Shown here one piece after another: positions 5,247 through 34,526 of a stretch of 34,526 nucleotides of DNA. The position numbers were made by a program, and so were the translations under genes. Each line of letters starts with the position of its first letter. Position 1 is the stretch's first letter. The DNA comes from Desulfovibrionaceae bacterium (lineage in GTDB: Bacteria > Desulfobacterota > Desulfovibrionia > Desulfovibrionales > Desulfovibrionaceae): positions 1-34,526 of the forward strand of contig JAVHLG010000042.1 of NCBI GenBank assembly GCA_031082225.1. Direction: 5' to 3'. The notes under the pieces are model-generated. The model was not told the DNA's origin. It saw only the letters and a list, made by a program, of their open reading frames with translations, and did not search any database.

Positions 5247-5946
5247 GGCGTATCCCTACAGGCAAGGAGTTGGTATAAGAACGACGAACAACCTCCAAAT
5301 TGCACAAAGTATAACATGCATGTCAAGACAACAGCCTATACGGCAAGAAAAAAACATTCCACACATATTTCATTACGGTCAGCACGAATCCCTCTTGTGC
5401 ATGGAAATATCTCTCTTCCGCCATGGCGGTCGCCATGCCCGGAAAAAGACTCGCCATACCGACGATGTTGAATTTCAAATTCACGACAGAGGGAGAGACC
5501 ATTCAGGATGGTGAGACAAGAGGGAAGGTCAATTGGCCAGATCCTTCATCGTCTTCAGAGAAAGCCGACACGGTGGCAACAGCCATACATACCGCCGTCC
5601 CGAGGCCGCAGCCGTCCCGGGGAGAGTGAAAAGACGTCACAGAAACCGAAAAAACACGGCCGACACGCCAAAAAGCGGCCCCCTCGCCCTGTCCCCTGCG
5701 TTCCGTCGGCCGCCGGGAAGCGCCTGCGCCAACCACGGCCCCGGGCCGAGCCCCCGAAATCCGTATCGGCCAATGGCAGGGCAAACTCGCTGCCCGCCGC
5801 CTTTTTCCCGGAAACACCCTGCCGCCTGTTTCCGTGGAAAAAAACTCGTGTGATTTTCAACACATACACATGTGCTTCGTTTGGCCGAAAGCAGCATTTT
5901 CAAGCCATTGCCGAGGAGCCACGACCACAAGCCACGACCCGGCTCT
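5247..5946. other. 700-bp non-coding stretch between the chemoreceptor and the Mla operon
   Basis: No convincing gene: open frames here are overlapping, proline/arginine-rich and lack start signals. Bases 5270-5480 are noticeably AT-richer than the surroundings and should hold the chemoreceptor promoter. Read on the minus strand there is a TTGACA closely followed by a perfect ACATGCATGT palindrome (5314-5323) and TATACT. The TTGACA-to-TATACT spacing is far too short for a classical promoter, so this may be an operator-like site. Bases 5900-5946 contain a repeated GTCGTGGCT element flanked by GAGCC/GGCTC, a weak hairpin downstream of the Mla operon. Confidence 0.5.
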
Positions 5947-28772: not shown

Positions 28773-29900
28773 TCATCGCCCGGCCTCAGCGCCGACGGCC
28801 GTTGGCGCTTCGGCGTCTTCGCCCGCCGCCGCCGGAAAGGCCACGACCACCGTGGTTCCCTTTTCCGGAACCGACGCCACCTTGACAAACCCGTGGTTCG
28901 CCTCGAGGATTTCCCTGGCGAAGGACAGTCCCAGTCCGGCGGAATAGGCCTTGGTGCTGAAACACGGCTCGAAAATTTTCGGCAAGATCGCCGCCGGAAT
29001 GCCCTTGCCCGCATCCGCTATGCGGAAGGTCGCCATGTCTCCCTCACGCCCGGCTGCGACCTCGACCACACCGCCTTTGGGCGAGGCCTCGATGGCGTTC
29101 GTTACTATCTCGCCGAGACCGACCAGCACGCTCTCCAGGTCGGCCCGCAGCCAGACCTCTTCCGGACCCGGGGAGACATGCAGGCGCACCCGGGCCACCT
29201 CGGCCTTGTCCCGGCCGTTTTGTTCCAGTCCGGCCAGAACGTCGGCGGCGGAAAATCGATGCATGAGATACGGCACATCATGCTTGACCTTCAAAATGCC
29301 GTCGATCAACCCCTCAAGCTTGTGCGACTCCTCAACGATGATCTGCAGTCGCGAGGAGACAGGCTCGTCCTTGTCACACTTGCGAAGCAGCGATTTCGCA
29401 AAGTTGGCGATGGTAAAAAGCGGATTGCGCGTTTCATGGGCCAGGGTGGCGGCCATCCGGTCGGATATGACGTGCCGTTCCAGCAAGATAGCCTGATCCC
29501 GGCTCCTTTTGATCTCGTCGAGCGCCTCGGAAAGTTTTGCGTTGGCCTGACGGAGCAACAAAAATCCTTTTTCCACAAACGAATAATACAGGGTCACAGC
29601 GGAAATAAAGACAAAGGTGATGGTATTGATGGCCCCGCTCACCGGACTGATGGACTCCCATATTTCCCTGTGCCCCGTGTTCACAAGAATATCGCGCACG
29701 ATATGCCCAACCCCGCGACCCACGGAAAATGCCGTCAGGGCCAAGGTGAGCATATAGATGTACGACCACAGAAGTTCTCGCGGCTCCCGGCGCATCAACC
29801 TGTGCGCATACCGGGTTGCGGCAAAGGACAGAACGATCATCATTGCCGACCCGAAAAAATCGACAAGATAGACGGGCAGTACGGGAAGCGGCAGGTTCAT
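28773..29900 (-). CDS. Membrane-bound sensor histidine kinase
   Basis: A 375-residue sensor kinase. The N-terminal sensor part has three hydrophobic helices (about 8-29, 44-62, 88-109), followed by a coiled linker (about 115-142). The phosphoacceptor is His155 in LAHETRNPL; the ATPase domain shows the N-box GEIVTNAIEAS, G1 DAGKGIP, and G2 SAGLGLSFAREI. No extracytoplasmic sensing domain is evident, so it may sense through its membrane helices or the co-encoded membrane protein. The start at 29900 follows AAGGAGCG and overlaps the stop of the upstream gene (ATGA). No response regulator gene is in the window. Confidence 0.92.
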   Translation of the reverse strand: MNLPLPVLPVYLVDFFGSAMMIVLSFAATRYAHRLMRREPRELLWSYIYMLTLALTAFSVGRGVGHIVRDILVNTGHREIWESISPVSGAINTITFVFISAVTLYYSFVEKGFLLLRQANAKLSEALDEIKRSRDQAILLERHVISDRMAATLAHETRNPLFTIANFAKSLLRKCDKDEPVSSRLQIIVEESHKLEGLIDGILKVKHDVPYLMHRFSAADVLAGLEQNGRDKAEVARVRLHVSPGPEEVWLRADLESVLVGLGEIVTNAIEASPKGGVVEVAAGREGDMATFRIADAGKGIPAAILPKIFEPCFSTKAYSAGLGLSFAREILEANHGFVKVASVPEKGTTVVVAFPAAAGEDAEAPTAVGAEAGR

Positions 29901-30433
29901 GGGCGCTCCTTGCAAAAGGCCCGAAGCCCCAGGAGGAAGAACAGCATGGCTGGAACCGCGATCAGATGGTCAAGCTTGCAGGCGTAATAAAGCAGCGCCT
30001 GCCAGGCCGGGGCCGCGACCAGAACCCGGTCCCAGGGATTCGTCCCTCCGGCAAAGGCCGGCGAGGGCATGAGTTCCTCCAGCCAATGCCCCAGGAAGGC
30101 CACGGCATTCCACGCGGCAAACAGCAGGCAGGATGCGGCGATGTATTTCCAGCCCCGGGACGTCCATTCCACATGACGCCTGAGGCGGAAATACAGCACC
30201 ACCATCGCCAGAAGAAACAGCAGATGTCCGAACTGGTGGGAATACAGGCCCTCGGCCCCGCCATGCGTCTGGATCGCCAGGGCCTCCTGCGGGGCGTAAA
30301 GAGCCAGGACCACGAACAGCGCCAGCCACATGCCTCCGGACAGGCCGCCCCGCGCCGGGGCCCATCCGCGCCGCGAACACCCGCCGCTGCCGCGCAATCC
30401 GCCGCCCCTGTGGCCATCCGATGGAAAGGCCAT
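29897..30433 (-). CDS. Hypothetical membrane protein coupled to the histidine kinase
   Basis: A 178-residue unrecognised membrane protein with a basic, glycine-rich N-terminus and about four hydrophobic helices (about 34-53, 68-82, 94-115, 158-173). A His-containing stretch at the start of the second helix (YSHQFGHLLFLLAM) and another before the loop (FLGHWLEELM) could bind metal or haem, but this is speculative. Its stop overlaps the kinase start, so the pair is translationally coupled; it may be an accessory sensor subunit. The start at 30433 follows GGAGGAGG. Confidence 0.78.
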   Translation of the reverse strand: MAFPSDGHRGGGLRGSGGCSRRGWAPARGGLSGGMWLALFVVLALYAPQEALAIQTHGGAEGLYSHQFGHLLFLLAMVVLYFRLRRHVEWTSRGWKYIAASCLLFAAWNAVAFLGHWLEELMPSPAFAGGTNPWDRVLVAAPAWQALLYYACKLDHLIAVPAMLFFLLGLRAFCKERP

Positions 30434-30774: not shown

Positions 30775-31287
30775 TTACAGCGTGCCGCGAAATTCGTCGC
30801 GACGGTTCTTGGCCCAGGCGGACTCGCCGTGACCCGGATCCAGGGGACGCTCCTTGCCGTAGCTCACGGTGGAGATGCGGCTGGCCTCGACGCCCAGGTT
30901 GACCAGGTACTGGGCGGAAGCCTGGGCGCGGCGTTCACCCAGGGCCAGGTTGTACTCGGCGGTGCCCCGCTCGTCGCAGTGGCCCTCGACGACCAGCTTG
31001 ACCTGCGGGTACTTGCGCAGCACCTCGACCTTGCGGGTCAGAATCTGCCGGGCCTCGGGGGTCAGGGACGAGCTGTCGAAGGCGAAATAGACCATCTGGG
31101 ACAGCTCGGTGTTGGCCTGGCCGAGCATCTCGCGCAACTGACGCTCTTTCTCCAGGCGCTGCCTCTCCTGCTCCTCCCAGCTGGCGTCCGCGCCGTCGCC
31201 GGGACCGGCGGCCTTCTTGGCGCAACCCGCGCCCAGAAGGGACACCATCAACACCACCAAAAACAGACTGACGATCCTTCCTCTCAT
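30775..31287 (-). CDS. pal: Peptidoglycan-associated lipoprotein
   Basis: A 170-residue outer-membrane lipoprotein. The signal peptide ends with lipobox LGAGC (Cys22); a charged helical linker follows (about 40-60), then an OmpA-like domain (about 63-168) with FAFDSSSLTPEA, VVEGHCDERGTAEYN and LGERRAQASAQYL, the peptidoglycan-binding core with the key Asp and Arg residues. Pal links the outer membrane to peptidoglycan and is remodelled by TolB/TolA. The start at 31287 follows GAGGAGAGAA; the frame upstream is not used. It is separated from tolB by 264 bp. Confidence 0.95.
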   Translation of the reverse strand: MRGRIVSLFLVVLMVSLLGAGCAKKAAGPGDGADASWEEQERQRLEKERQLREMLGQANTELSQMVYFAFDSSSLTPEARQILTRKVEVLRKYPQVKLVVEGHCDERGTAEYNLALGERRAQASAQYLVNLGVEASRISTVSYGKERPLDPGHGESAWAKNRRDEFRGTL

Positions 31288-31551: not shown

Positions 31552-32874
31552 CTATTTCCCCGGTAAAGGCCCCCAGGAGGGCATCCTGGCCGGGCCGTCT
31601 CCAGTGGGCACCATGACCGGTTGTGTGCCGTGCCGGGTGGTGATGTAGATCTTGGACGCCCCGCCCCGGGTGGAGGCAAAGGCGATGAAATAGCCGTCCG
31701 GCGCAAAGGACGGATTTTCGTCCGAGCCCCCGCCCGAGGTGACCTGCTGTTCGGCCCCGGTGGCGATGTCGAGGACGAACACCTTCTGGCCGCCGCCGGT
31801 CTGGCGGGTGAAGGCCACCAGGGTTCCGTCCGGGCTCATGCTGGGGTTGGTGTTGTAGCCGAATTTGGTGAGGCGTCGGGTGGAGCCTGAACCCATGTCG
31901 CGCAGATAGATGTTGGGGCTGCCGGACTCGTCCGAGACGTAGGCCATGAGCCGCCCGGTCCTGTCGAAGCTGGGCGAGACCGCGATGCCGTTGGTCTTGA
32001 CCGTGGGCGTGGTGGGCTGGAAGGCCGAATTCAGGATATAGATGGCCGATTCGCTGCGCAGATTCAGGGCCACGGCGATCTGTCCGTTGGGCAGGAAACG
32101 GGGGCTGACCACGCTGGTGCAGGGCAGGGTGTGCACCGCGGGCTTGCCGCCGCCGGACCACACGCCCAGGTAGTGGGACCGGGAACCGATGAGGGTGAAG
32201 GCGATCTTGCCGCCGTCAAAGGACCAGGAGGGGCTGATGGCCATGCCCAGATCCCCGTAGCTGGTAATTCTGGTCAGGCCGCGCCCCATGGGCCGCACCA
32301 CCCAGATGTCGCTGCTTTTGGGGCCGTTTGGCTTGGAAAAGGCCAGTTGCGAATTGAAAAAACCGCCCTGCCCGGTGAGCTTGAGCATAAGCTCCATGCA
32401 GAACCGGTCGGCGATGTCCGGGAGCTGGGCGTCGGTGACGGCATCGAAGCCCTTGCCCACGAGAATTTTCTGGGAATAGACCTCGAAGGCCCGAAGCTCC
32501 ACGTTGCCGAGGTTGCCGCCCGGGGTCCAGTTGGAGGTGACCAGGATGTCGACGCGGGCCAGTCCGAAGGGCTTGAAATCGATCTGATCGGCCTGGGGGC
32601 CGGATATCTGCCCGAGCACCTGGGATTGGGGGACCACCTGCAAAAAGGGCATGAAGGCCAGGTTTTTATTGATGAGATCCTGGAGCTTGCTGGACGCGGC
32701 GTCCTGGCCGCCCCCGGCGAAGGGCTGGGACAGGACAAGATTCATCCTGGCCTGGCCGGGGCCCTGAATGTTCACGGTCAGGGAATCCTGGGCCATGGCG
32801 TACCGGACGGGGGCGAAAAGGGATGCGGCGAATAACGCCGCCATCAGGGCAAAAACAGAGAGAATACGGCTCAT
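31552..32874 (-). CDS. tolB: Tol-Pal system beta-propeller protein TolB
   Basis: A 440-residue periplasmic protein: signal peptide with cleavage after AMA (about residue 28), an N-terminal alpha/beta domain (about 30-170), and a six-bladed propeller (about 180-435) with repeats such as SFDGGKIAFTL, SPSFDRTGRLMAYVS, SPDGTLVAFTR and APDGYFIAFAS. TolB carries Pal-binding and TolA-binding activity. The start at 32874 overlaps the stop of a 39-codon upstream frame (ATGA), which suggests translational coupling, as the GGGA upstream is a weak ribosome binding site. A gene-free 264-bp stretch follows before pal. Confidence 0.95.
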   Translation of the reverse strand: MSRILSVFALMAALFAASLFAPVRYAMAQDSLTVNIQGPGQARMNLVLSQPFAGGGQDAASSKLQDLINKNLAFMPFLQVVPQSQVLGQISGPQADQIDFKPFGLARVDILVTSNWTPGGNLGNVELRAFEVYSQKILVGKGFDAVTDAQLPDIADRFCMELMLKLTGQGGFFNSQLAFSKPNGPKSSDIWVVRPMGRGLTRITSYGDLGMAISPSWSFDGGKIAFTLIGSRSHYLGVWSGGGKPAVHTLPCTSVVSPRFLPNGQIAVALNLRSESAIYILNSAFQPTTPTVKTNGIAVSPSFDRTGRLMAYVSDESGSPNIYLRDMGSGSTRRLTKFGYNTNPSMSPDGTLVAFTRQTGGGQKVFVLDIATGAEQQVTSGGGSDENPSFAPDGYFIAFASTRGGASKIYITTRHGTQPVMVPTGDGPARMPSWGPLPGK

Positions 32875-32990
32875 TGTCGAATGTCCCGTGCGTTGAAGGT
32901 GAGTTGCAGGACGCTTACGTTCCGGGGGGCGCAAAGCGCCATGGCCGTCGCCGCCGCGACAAGAACGATACCGCTTCGCATGGCCGTCAT
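32871..32990 (-). pseudogene. 39-codon remnant: TolA2-type signal peptide joined to a TolA C-terminal tail
   Basis: A frame of 39 residues. Its first 22 residues match the signal peptide of the 32987-33715 protein (MTAMRSGIVLVA, then ATAMALCAP); the last 15 (SVLQLTFNARDIRQ region) match the C-terminal strand of TolA (SVLNVNFSPSDVAR). So it looks like another copy of the duplicated gene with everything between signal peptide and final strand deleted. Its ATG overlaps the stop of the preceding gene and its stop overlaps the tolB ATG, both as ATGA, so it may persist to couple tolB translation. Too short for the usual gene callers. Confidence 0.75.
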
Positions 32991-33179
32991 CGGGCGACAT
33001 CGCTCGGGCTGAAGTTCACATTCAGGACGCTTAAGCTCGGCAAGGGCGGCGGCGGCAGGGCCTCGGCCGCCTTCACGGCGTTGAGCACGGACGTGTCATA
33101 CGCGGGCATGCCGGACGACTGCACCAACACATATTTGAGTATACGGCCATCCTTGCCGATATGCAATTCCACCACGGCC
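32922..33179. repeat. Near-identical direct repeat in the tolA region, copy 1
   Basis: 258 bp matching 33647-33904 at a constant offset of 725 bp with only a handful of differences. It spans the end of one TolA C-terminal domain, the ATGA junction and the signal-peptide start of the next frame. Confidence 0.93.
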
Positions 33180-33715
33180 CCCTGCTTGCCGCCAGCGTCT
33201 TTGCTCGAAAACCGCCAGTTCTTCTTGATGATCATCGTGACGATATGGGCGTAGACCTGAAGCGTGGCTCCGCCGCCGCCCCCGCCGGGTCCGGTTTCGC
33301 CTTGTCCGCCGCCGCTGCCTGTGGAACGCTTCAGGGCGGCAAGCTCCCTGGCCAGGGCCTCTGAGGAACCCGCTTGCACCGACGAGGTTTCGGCCGGGGC
33401 CGCCCCCGCCGTTGAGGCCCGGGCCTTGGCCTGTTTCAAGGCCTCGGCCATGACGTCCTTGGCGCTCGGCTTTTCCGGGTCGCTTTTTGCGGCGTCGGCT
33501 TGGTTCTGCGGCACGTCACCGGGCTTGGCGCCATGATCGCCGGGCCTTTCCAGGGCGTTTCCCTGGGCTTCGGACCAGAACGGTTCCAGGGTGATGACCA
33601 AGGGCGTGGCCCCGCCACCGGGCGCGTCGTCGGCCGCCAGGGTCCGGCCCGGGGCGCAAAGCGCCATGGCCGTCACCACCGCGACAAGAACGATACCGCT
33701 TCGCATGGCCGTCAT
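32987..33715 (-). CDS. Exported TolA C-terminal domain protein (duplicate)
   Basis: A 242-residue protein: signal peptide (MTAMRSGIVLVAVVTAMALC, cleavage near LAA at about 28), an Ala/Lys/Glu linker with AKDVMAEALKQAKARA, a glycine-rich hinge, and a TolA/TonB C-terminal domain (about 148-242: TLQVYAHIVTMIIKKNWRF, AVVELHIGKDGRILKYVLVQ, ALPPPPLPSLSVLNVNF). The last ~60 residues are almost identical to TolA. Unlike TolA it has no membrane anchor or long Pro/Lys spacer, so it is predicted to be a soluble periplasmic TolA-III. It starts within the tolA stop codon. It could compete with TolA for TolB/Pal or act as an alternate partner; function is inferred only. Confidence 0.88.
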   Translation of the reverse strand: MTAMRSGIVLVAVVTAMALCAPGRTLAADDAPGGGATPLVITLEPFWSEAQGNALERPGDHGAKPGDVPQNQADAAKSDPEKPSAKDVMAEALKQAKARASTAGAAPAETSSVQAGSSEALARELAALKRSTGSGGGQGETGPGGGGGGATLQVYAHIVTMIIKKNWRFSSKDAGGKQGAVVELHIGKDGRILKYVLVQSSGMPAYDTSVLNAVKAAEALPPPPLPSLSVLNVNFSPSDVAR

Positions 33716-33904
33716 CGGGCGACATCGCTCGGGCTGAAGTTCACATTCAGAACGCTTAAGCTCGGCAAGGGCGGCGGCGGCAGGGCCTCGGTCGCCCTCA
33801 CGGCGTTGAGCACGGACGTGTCATACGCGGGCATGCCGGACGACTGCACCAACACATATTTGAGTATACGGCCATCCTTGCCGATATGCAATTCCACCAC
33901 GGCC
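33647..33904. repeat. Near-identical direct repeat in the tolA region, copy 2
   Basis: Partner of 32922-33179. Beyond 33904 the two copies drop to protein-level similarity, then DNA similarity returns over the VYADIV/VYAHIV strand (about 33961-34000 versus 33243-33280), a patchy pattern. Confidence 0.93.
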
Positions 33905-34526
33905 AGCAGATTGTCCCGCGTCTGGGCGAACCGCCAATTTTCCTTAATGATCTTCTTGACGATATCGGCATAGACCTGAAGCGTGGCCCCGCCGCCTCCC
34001 CCGCCGCCACCGCCGCCGCCGGGTCCGCTCCCGCCTTGTCCGCCGCCGCCGCCGCTCACGGAACGTTTCAAGGCGGCGAGTTCCCGGGACATGGCGTCGG
34101 AGGAACCGGACGGCCCCGAGGCAGACCCGCTTGAGGCCTGGCCGGACTTGGCGGCCTGGGCCTGGGCCTGTTTGAGGGCCTCGGCCATGACGTCCTTGGC
34201 GCTCGGCGCGGCGGGGGCGGCCTTCTTGGCGTCGGCCTGGGCCTGTTTCAGGGCCTCGGCCATGACGTCCCGGGGATCGGGCTTCTTGGCCTCGGGCTGG
34301 GGCTTGGCGTCCGCGACCTTGGGCGGTTCCGGCGGCTTGGGCTTGTCCTCGGCCTTTTTGGGGGGCTCTTTTTTCGCGTCTTCCTTGGGGATGGGCGCGG
34401 CCTGGGGCTCCGGCTTGGGCTCCGGCTTGGGTTCGGGCTTGGGTTCGGGCGGCCTGGGCGGCTCGGGCGGCCGCGCCGCCACGGGTTCGGGCGGCTGGGG
34501 CCTGGCCTGGATGGGCGCGGCGTCGG
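33712..34526 (-). CDS. tolA: TolA (partial; N-terminus beyond the right edge)
   Basis: The frame is open to the window end, so at least 271 codons of TolA are visible and the membrane anchor is missing. Seen: a Pro/Glu/Lys spacer (repeated PKPE units), Ala-rich helices with a DVMAEALKQAQA element occurring twice, a glycine run of about 20 residues as a hinge, and the C-terminal TolA/TonB domain (TLQVYADIVKKIIKENWRF ... SVLNVNF). TolA transmits proton-motive force from TolQR to Pal at the outer membrane. Its stop overlaps the start of the duplicate gene (ATGA). tolQ and tolR are expected further right. Confidence 0.9.
   Translation of the reverse strand, partial: DAAPIQARPQPPEPVAARPPEPPRPPEPKPEPKPEPKPEPQAAPIPKEDAKKEPPKKAEDKPKPPEPPKVADAKPQPEAKKPDPRDVMAEALKQAQADAKKAAPAAPSAKDVMAEALKQAQAQAAKSGQASSGSASGPSGSSDAMSRELAALKRSVSGGGGGQGGSGPGGGGGGGGGGGATLQVYADIVKKIIKENWRFAQTRDNLLAVVELHIGKDGRILKYVLVQSSGMPAYDTSVLNAVRATEALPPPPLPSLSVLNVNFSPSDVAR

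Follow-up and report, generated by a model that had tools for sequence, protein, structure and literature searches.

A gene for an apparently exported TolA-III protein located between tolA and tolB in Desulfovibrionaceae: a candidate motor-uncoupled competitor within the Tol-Pal system

The gene order of the Tol-Pal system of the bacterial envelope has been described as highly conserved (PMC7391070, PMC12204202). TolB is reported to bind the C-terminal domain of TolA (TolA-III) by strand addition, and TolB, the phage protein G3p and colicin N are described as binding a strand in the C-terminal part of this domain in Escherichia coli (PMC4339652, PMC7391070). In the same species, a TolA-III domain provided with a signal peptide has been used for releasing periplasmic protein (PMC6195910). 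Here we describe a gene that appears to encode a natural protein of this kind. It lies between tolA and tolB at the right end of a 34,526-nt stretch of DNA from a Desulfovibrionaceae bacterium (contig JAVHLG010000042.1, assembly GCA_031082225.1; henceforth the window), and we refer to it and to similar genes of relatives as satellites. The window is one complete contig (C87) of a 150-contig genome, and all coordinates refer to its whole length. No description of an exported TolA-III gene in this position was found in the open-licence literature searched.

Read along the minus strand, the right end of the window holds the 3' part of tolA, the 242-codon open reading frame (ORF) of the satellite, a 39-codon remnant, tolB and pal, with an ATGA overlap, read directly from the sequence, at all three junctions from tolA to tolB. 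The tolA part (33712..34526), consisting of the linker and domain III (33715..33987; PF13103, E 6.7e-18), is truncated by the contig end. Its 5' part is found on contig C105 of the same genome, which ends with tolQ, tolR and the beginning of tolA and whose last 13 bases are the first 13 of the window contig on the minus strand, with the frame continuous; this in-frame overlap places the contig break in the tolA linker and not in the repeats described below. The satellite gene (32987..33715, minus strand; PF13103, E 3.7e-17) begins with a putative signal peptide of 27 residues, delimited by eye and ending in TLA (33635..33715), followed by about 50 residues of no recognised kind, a linker homologous to that of TolA itself, a run of glycines and, last, a TolA-III domain (32990..33268, PF13103, i.e. 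TonB_2/TolA-III) that is 84% identical to domain III of the window's TolA. The remnant (32871..32990, minus strand) overlaps its neighbours on both sides. A preliminary description, made from the letters of the stretch, had already read the locus as an exported TolA-III gene and a 39-codon ORF joined by ATGA overlaps, and both the sequence and the PF13103 match confirm it.

The satellite of the window has neither the N-terminal anchor of TolA nor its S..H motif, which we take to be the contact of TolA-I with TolQ. That a free TolA-III may occur naturally, as the preliminary description had proposed, is supported by this anatomy along with the similar genes of relatives. Across the family genomes that we compared (see below), the motif is present in 116 of 118 TolA ORFs versus 3 of 60 satellite ORFs, none of the three being a clear TolA-I: in two the motif lies upstream of the likely start, and in the third the start is doubtful. 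A hydrophobic-core score detected an N-terminal hydrophobic core in 57 of the 60 satellite ORFs of relatives, whose starts were chosen by rule and are in some cases probably too early (L104, L110, L116, L130, L134). The satellite of G140 carries a lipobox-like LTSC, so some satellites may be lipoproteins.

An AlphaFold2 model of the window satellite has a mean predicted local distance difference test (pLDDT) score of 64 over the whole protein and mostly 77–94 in the blocks of the domain. Its top PDB matches are TolA-III structures (1lr0, E 1.6e-5; 2x9a_B, template modelling score 0.80 over the target), and the matched entries, from Pseudomonas aeruginosa and E. coli, include TolA-III bound to phage G3p, to colicin A and to a TolB peptide. 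TonB and HasB domains are also among the structural matches; a structure search from sequence alone placed HasB best (0.003), and a profile-based search retrieved TolA-III. The window satellite and six proteins of relatives (the doubtful G194 frame, see below, excluded) exceed the cut-offs of both PF13103 and TIGR01352. Pfam's TolA model PF06519 gave no match to the window satellite at E 0.01 and found nothing when used to probe the window's own genome, and a family-built profile (A1) was for that reason used instead. Under the NCBIfam equivalog tolA_full (cut-off 59.45 bits) the satellite reaches 52.5 bits, but this is a weak test, since the truncated TolA of the window also stays under the cut-off (50.8) while two anchor-less two-domain proteins of relatives pass it (L033:4099-4824, 71.0 bits; L190:2921-3670, 66.2 bits). 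The latter two may carry a TolA annotation.

TolA and the satellite are connected by a near-identical repeat of about 240 bp, extending from 33894 to 33655 and found again 725 bp downstream, with 93–100% identity in each of eight 30-bp blocks. The first copy (33655..33894, minus strand) takes in the final ~57 codons of the TolA domain, the stop, and ~20 codons at the start of the satellite signal peptide; the second (32930..33169, minus strand) spans the C-terminal part of the satellite, its stop codon and the signal peptide of the remnant. Upstream of this tract, block identity falls to 47–87%. Between satellite and TolA, non-synonymous (dN) and synonymous (dS) divergence are 0.193 and 0.493 in the linker, 0.298 and 0.632 in the first part of the domain, and 0.014 and 0.021 in its last part (one synonymous and two non-synonymous changes). 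Between the window and its congener G002, dS is 0.32 in tolB, 0.535 in the tolA linker and 0.74–0.91 in the parts of the tolA domain, where dN is ~0.21. Set against these values, the linker and first-part dS suggest a duplication about as old as the split from G002, or older, and the last-part dS points to a recent homogenisation of the end of the repeat, both estimates coming from short stretches. The window's TolA-III domain (33715-33987) is itself further from that of G002 than is that of the other congener, G001 (dN ~0.21 versus 0.06–0.08), an excess that might reflect either faster evolution or replacement by satellite sequence. G071 and G073, of genus g48, have satellites whose ends resemble that of TolA in satellite-free congeners, and the TolA of these two genomes has a different end.

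The remnant consists of the start of a signal peptide, copied from that of the satellite, fused to the last ~16 residues of a TolA C-terminus like that of the congeners. Its tail into tolB matches the tolA/tolB junction of the duplicate-free G002 at 74 of 80 nt and that of G001 at 57 of 70; in both congeners tolB follows tolA directly. A third copy from which the middle part has disappeared accounts for this structure. The tandem amplification proposed in the preliminary description agrees with how such genes arise: a duplication that captures the next signal peptide is found in three relatives. The remnant itself holds no TolA-III domain.

In these three relatives the birth of an exported TolA-III can be followed most clearly. 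For G163, the succession of TolA-III, stop, spacer and satellite signal peptide aligns with that of satellite-III, stop, spacer and tolB signal peptide over 394 columns (0 of 500 shuffles as good), and G060 gives the same kind of alignment over ~237 columns (again 0/500), with an identical junction, TAGCCATGAAACGCCACG. The extra satellite of G088 has a signal peptide that resembles tolB's less (z 5.2, 0/300 shuffles) than the one encoded by its downstream neighbour, a two-domain satellite (z 12.6, 0/500). At the level of sequence, these alignments show tandem duplications that ran from inside tolA into the signal peptide of the following gene. Such an event produces a TolA-III with a signal peptide in one step, with the junction preserved, and is a simple way for a domain anchored in the membrane to become exported. 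For the gene of the window we infer the same route. There, the satellite signal peptide resembles that of its own tolB weakly (z 2.3, 10 of 300 shuffles as good) and those of tolB in the congeners with z 2.3 (G002) and z 4.3 (G001, 0/300).

To establish how widespread such genes are, we searched 59 relatives (54 with a match) and 288 family genomes, with a match in 268 for TolB and in 271 for the domain profile. From the matches listed, 148 stretches of 143 genomes were taken and eight more were picked for their extra matches, so the sample is not random. The interval counts omit G300 and G133, and G194 was set aside: its supposed satellite (L168) lacks a signal peptide and scores 21.6 bits with PF13103 (cut-off 22), and was judged spurious. 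At least one satellite gene occurs in 56 of the 124 tolA–tolB intervals that show both genes (window included; sample partly chosen for satellites), 43 with a two-domain gene, 11 with single-domain genes and 2 with both; nothing was detected in the other 68. Outside the 124, three stretches have a two-domain gene and tolA is not on their contig, seven have tolA and a two-domain gene with tolB missing from the stretch, and 20 could not be resolved. A search of related genomes for an extra TolA-C gene between tolA and tolB, suggested in the preliminary description, was thus successful, and the notion of a one-off duplication in the window genome was rejected. The recurrence across the family and the conserved two-domain form go beyond what had been described. 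Among 60 genomes from outside the family (348 were searched in all), three had extra matches, which were located on different contigs or separated by 70 kb or more; the family-built profile is less sensitive there. In E. coli, where only near matches count, the domain was matched in 5375 of 5426 genomes at 5378 places, with a maximum of two per genome.

Both TolA-III domains were detected in 47 of 60 extracted satellite ORFs. Two-domain proteins were found in five genera, g52 (40, three of which have a single detected domain and were classed here by likeness, plus 2 alongside a single-domain gene), g53, g55, g7 and g4. A tree built from 80 of the 251 domain rows unites the first domains in one clade (98/86) and the second domains in another (97/69), giving the two-domain form one origin. 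It therefore looks old, and substitution rates support its maintenance by purifying selection: dN/dS was 0.10–0.50 in 19 pairs of two-domain proteins, hand-picked among near relatives, and at most 0.36 in 17 of them. A cysteine pair (C-x12-20-C) is present in 50/50 first domains versus 0/50 second domains, 1/132 TolA domains and 1/19 single-satellite rows, and could possibly form a disulfide.

Single-domain satellites, found in the window, G019 (three), G021, G163, G191, G060, G071, G073, G088, G140, G199, G003 and G017, behave differently on the tree, where most, including that of the window, cluster with their own TolA. The label 'single' requires 11 changes on the 80-row tree, nine of which the starred branches enforce, and a single origin is seen in 0% of 200 bootstrap trees; an earlier tree (151 of 241 rows) requires nine changes, seven forced. 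On this earlier tree the second domains need two changes, because the spurious G194 frame falls among them. These domain trees rest on 95 columns, and the third satellite of G019, a long branch, was omitted from the 80-row one. This third gene (L031:5590-6096) is a strongly diverged, exported TonB_2 gene located upstream of tolB. Overall, the tree supports several separate origins of the single-domain form in the family.

If the strand bound in E. coli TolA-III is mapped onto the satellites, a step that is our own, it falls in the C-terminal part of the domain. In several satellites this is the part that matches the TolA of the same genome best. Identities of the N- and C-terminal parts to the own TolA are 65/96% in the window, 62/91% and 59/86% in G019, 34/98% in G191, 51/74% in G073 and 75/92% in G163. 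In 11 control pairs of TolA with TolA, the lead of the C-terminal part is at most 11 points, and in one of them the N-terminal part leads by 21.

The explanation that we favour is the following. Satellite genes arise, as the sequence shows in three relatives and as is likely in the window, by a tandem duplication that starts within tolA and ends among the signal-peptide codons of the gene behind it. The product of the 242-codon gene would be a periplasmic TolA-III without the inner-membrane anchor by which TolQR pulls TolA. It would be translated from the tol-pal mRNA, probably coupled to its neighbours through the ATGA overlaps. As the end of domain III is shared with TolA almost letter for letter, the protein is predicted to bind the N-terminal strand of TolB and, not being coupled to the motor, would compete with TolA for it and restrain the mobilisation of Pal. 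A built-in brake of this sort would set outer-membrane stability or vesicle release. The regulatory role that the preliminary description had mentioned would fit the anatomy of the protein as such a competitor. A FEMS review considers that vesicle release is possibly regulated via the contacts of TolB with Pal or TolA (PMC7391070). Vesicles of Desulfovibrio fairfieldensis are reported with raised TolB (PMC9818291); a term search of the main text of that paper met no satellite. We give this whole explanation, a periplasmic motor-uncoupled TolB binder that restrains Tol-Pal, a probability of roughly 0.42. Somewhat more tentative is the wider proposal of a recurrently evolved, motor-uncoupled Tol-Pal inhibitor whose TolB-binding end is kept matched by recombination and which in one lineage became fixed as a two-domain, cysteine-paired sixth component.

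Several observations weigh against the favoured explanation. A copied signal peptide is clear in three single-domain loci only, the trace in the window being weak, and the likeness is weak or absent in G019, G021, G191, G071, G073, G199, G003 and G140. The satellites of G003 and G017 sit on long branches apart from the TolA of their own genomes, the former grouping with that of G199 and the latter placed beside the two-domain clade. Gene conversion with TolA, which would place a satellite beside the TolA of its genome, could inflate the apparent number of origins; with the long branches, this makes the number of births uncertain. The better match of the C-terminal part is missing, slight or moderate in G021 (41/42%), G060 (75/77%), G088 (85/85%), G199 (43/37%), G071 (69/79%), G003 (17/30%), G017 (24/34%) and G140 (38/53%). 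The two-domain proteins are diverged from TolA and could have another binding partner. The gene is missing from both congeners of the window and, in the remaining genera that have single-domain satellites, from most congeners. Finally, the sole between-species pair of single-domain satellites that we compared, G071/G073, has a dN/dS of 0.98.

This last ratio also speaks for the alternative that we rank second after the tuning competitor, namely that single-domain satellites are short-lived, nearly neutral by-products of tandem duplications that are frequent in this operon and that only the two-domain form was put to use. The sporadic distribution, with 68 of 124 resolvable intervals empty, and the decay of the second copy in the window to 39 codons point the same way. 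However, the ORF of the window is intact, with a linker dN/dS versus TolA of ~0.39 (few codons), and its divergence from TolA (dS 0.49–0.63) is not below that of tolB from the nearest congener (0.32) and is near that of the tolA linker (0.535). In E. coli, moreover, genomes seldom hold two close copies of the domain (5378 places across 5375 genomes, near matches only). We consider this account unlikely, though likelier than the remaining ones. Ranked third, and less probable again, is a positive adaptor, an exported protein that would link TolB, Pal or further envelope proteins presenting a strand, with no input from the motor, the two-domain forms being bivalent. The two domains of 47 of 60 satellite ORFs would suit it, and the cysteine pair in all 50 first domains suggests a specialised first domain, but the protein of the window has a single domain.

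The preliminary description had also raised a decoy role, and this idea, of a lure for phages or bacteriocins whose receptor is TolA-III, comes fourth. Phage G3p and colicin N are described as binding the TolB site of TolA-III (PMC4339652), and recurrent birth with exchange of the partner-binding end would suit an arms race. The searches gave no link to phages. Zot matches were found in 7 of 288 family genomes, that of the window having none; they are over the family cut-off but partial, lie in frames of 725–801 residues and were judged not to be filamentous-phage genes, and a filamentous-phage decoy was on this result rejected as leading idea. None of five satellite proteins matched PADLOC models or PHROGs. 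A decoy that also bound TolB should, moreover, burden its host, and we regard this role as improbable. An assembly or chimera artefact, which the preliminary description had named as a refutation, is hardly credible and was rejected: the contig does end within tolA and carries a long, GC-rich repeat, but the repeat copies differ at many sites and lie within the contig, C105 continues the frame across a 13-bp overlap, and the same kind of layout recurs in genomes of one or two contigs (G088, G140, G017), G088 and G140 being single-contig.

Downstream of the remnant, tolB (31552..32874, minus strand) has its start placed at ATGAGCCGT (32874), overlapping the stop of the remnant, and matches TIGR02800 with E 3.4e-78 and 263.5 bits, under the cut-off of that model (343.15). 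It adjoins pal (30775..31287, minus strand; start chosen by eye), which encodes an OmpA-like lipoprotein (PF00691, E 1.7e-23). Further along, the ORF at 28773-29915 (minus strand) looks by eye like a membrane sensor histidine kinase. An Rfam search of the locus gave no match.

Elsewhere in the family, G082, G086 and G124 have further single TolA-III-like frames of 166–213 residues far from tolA. In L125 (G137) and L137 (G131), from g52 genomes of 1.4–1.6 Mb, no two-domain gene was detected between tolA and tolB; G131 has a TolA-III match on a different contig. In L186-L190 and L179-L180 (g53, g55), tolA and the two-domain gene lie together and tolB is absent from the fetched stretch, and in 15 g53 genomes the stretch fetched around tolB contains no TolA-III. 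We read this arrangement as a split tol-pal locus.

If our reading is right, a natural, operon-borne TolA-III that apparently originated on several occasions and in one case was conserved would be a new component or regulator of a core envelope machine, and the tuning of Pal mobilisation and vesicle release would become testable. With the TolA-III of Tol-Pal, the satellite shares the fold (1lr0, 2x9a, 3qdr, 6s3w), the operon and, in the window, a near-identical C-terminal end. It differs from TolA in being a separate gene with a signal peptide in place of the anchor and the S..H motif. With TonB C-terminal domain proteins (PF13103, PF03544, TIGR01352) it has PF13103 and TIGR01352 matches in common; TonB proteins are membrane-anchored, whereas satellites sit after tolA and the best fold match of the window model is TolA-III. 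Soluble decoy or short receptors restrain signalling, and they offer an analogy, with no homology implied, of a ligand-binding part that is duplicated without the signalling part. Until now, free TolA-III has been familiar as a means of perturbing the envelope in the laboratory. Also close to the satellite is the engineered signal-peptide::TolAIII of E. coli (pTA3Y, Wan & Baneyx 1998, as cited in PMC6195910), likewise a signal peptide with a free periplasmic TolA-III; that construct is artificial and overproduced, whereas the satellite is natural, lies in the operon and has a linker homologous to that of TolA.

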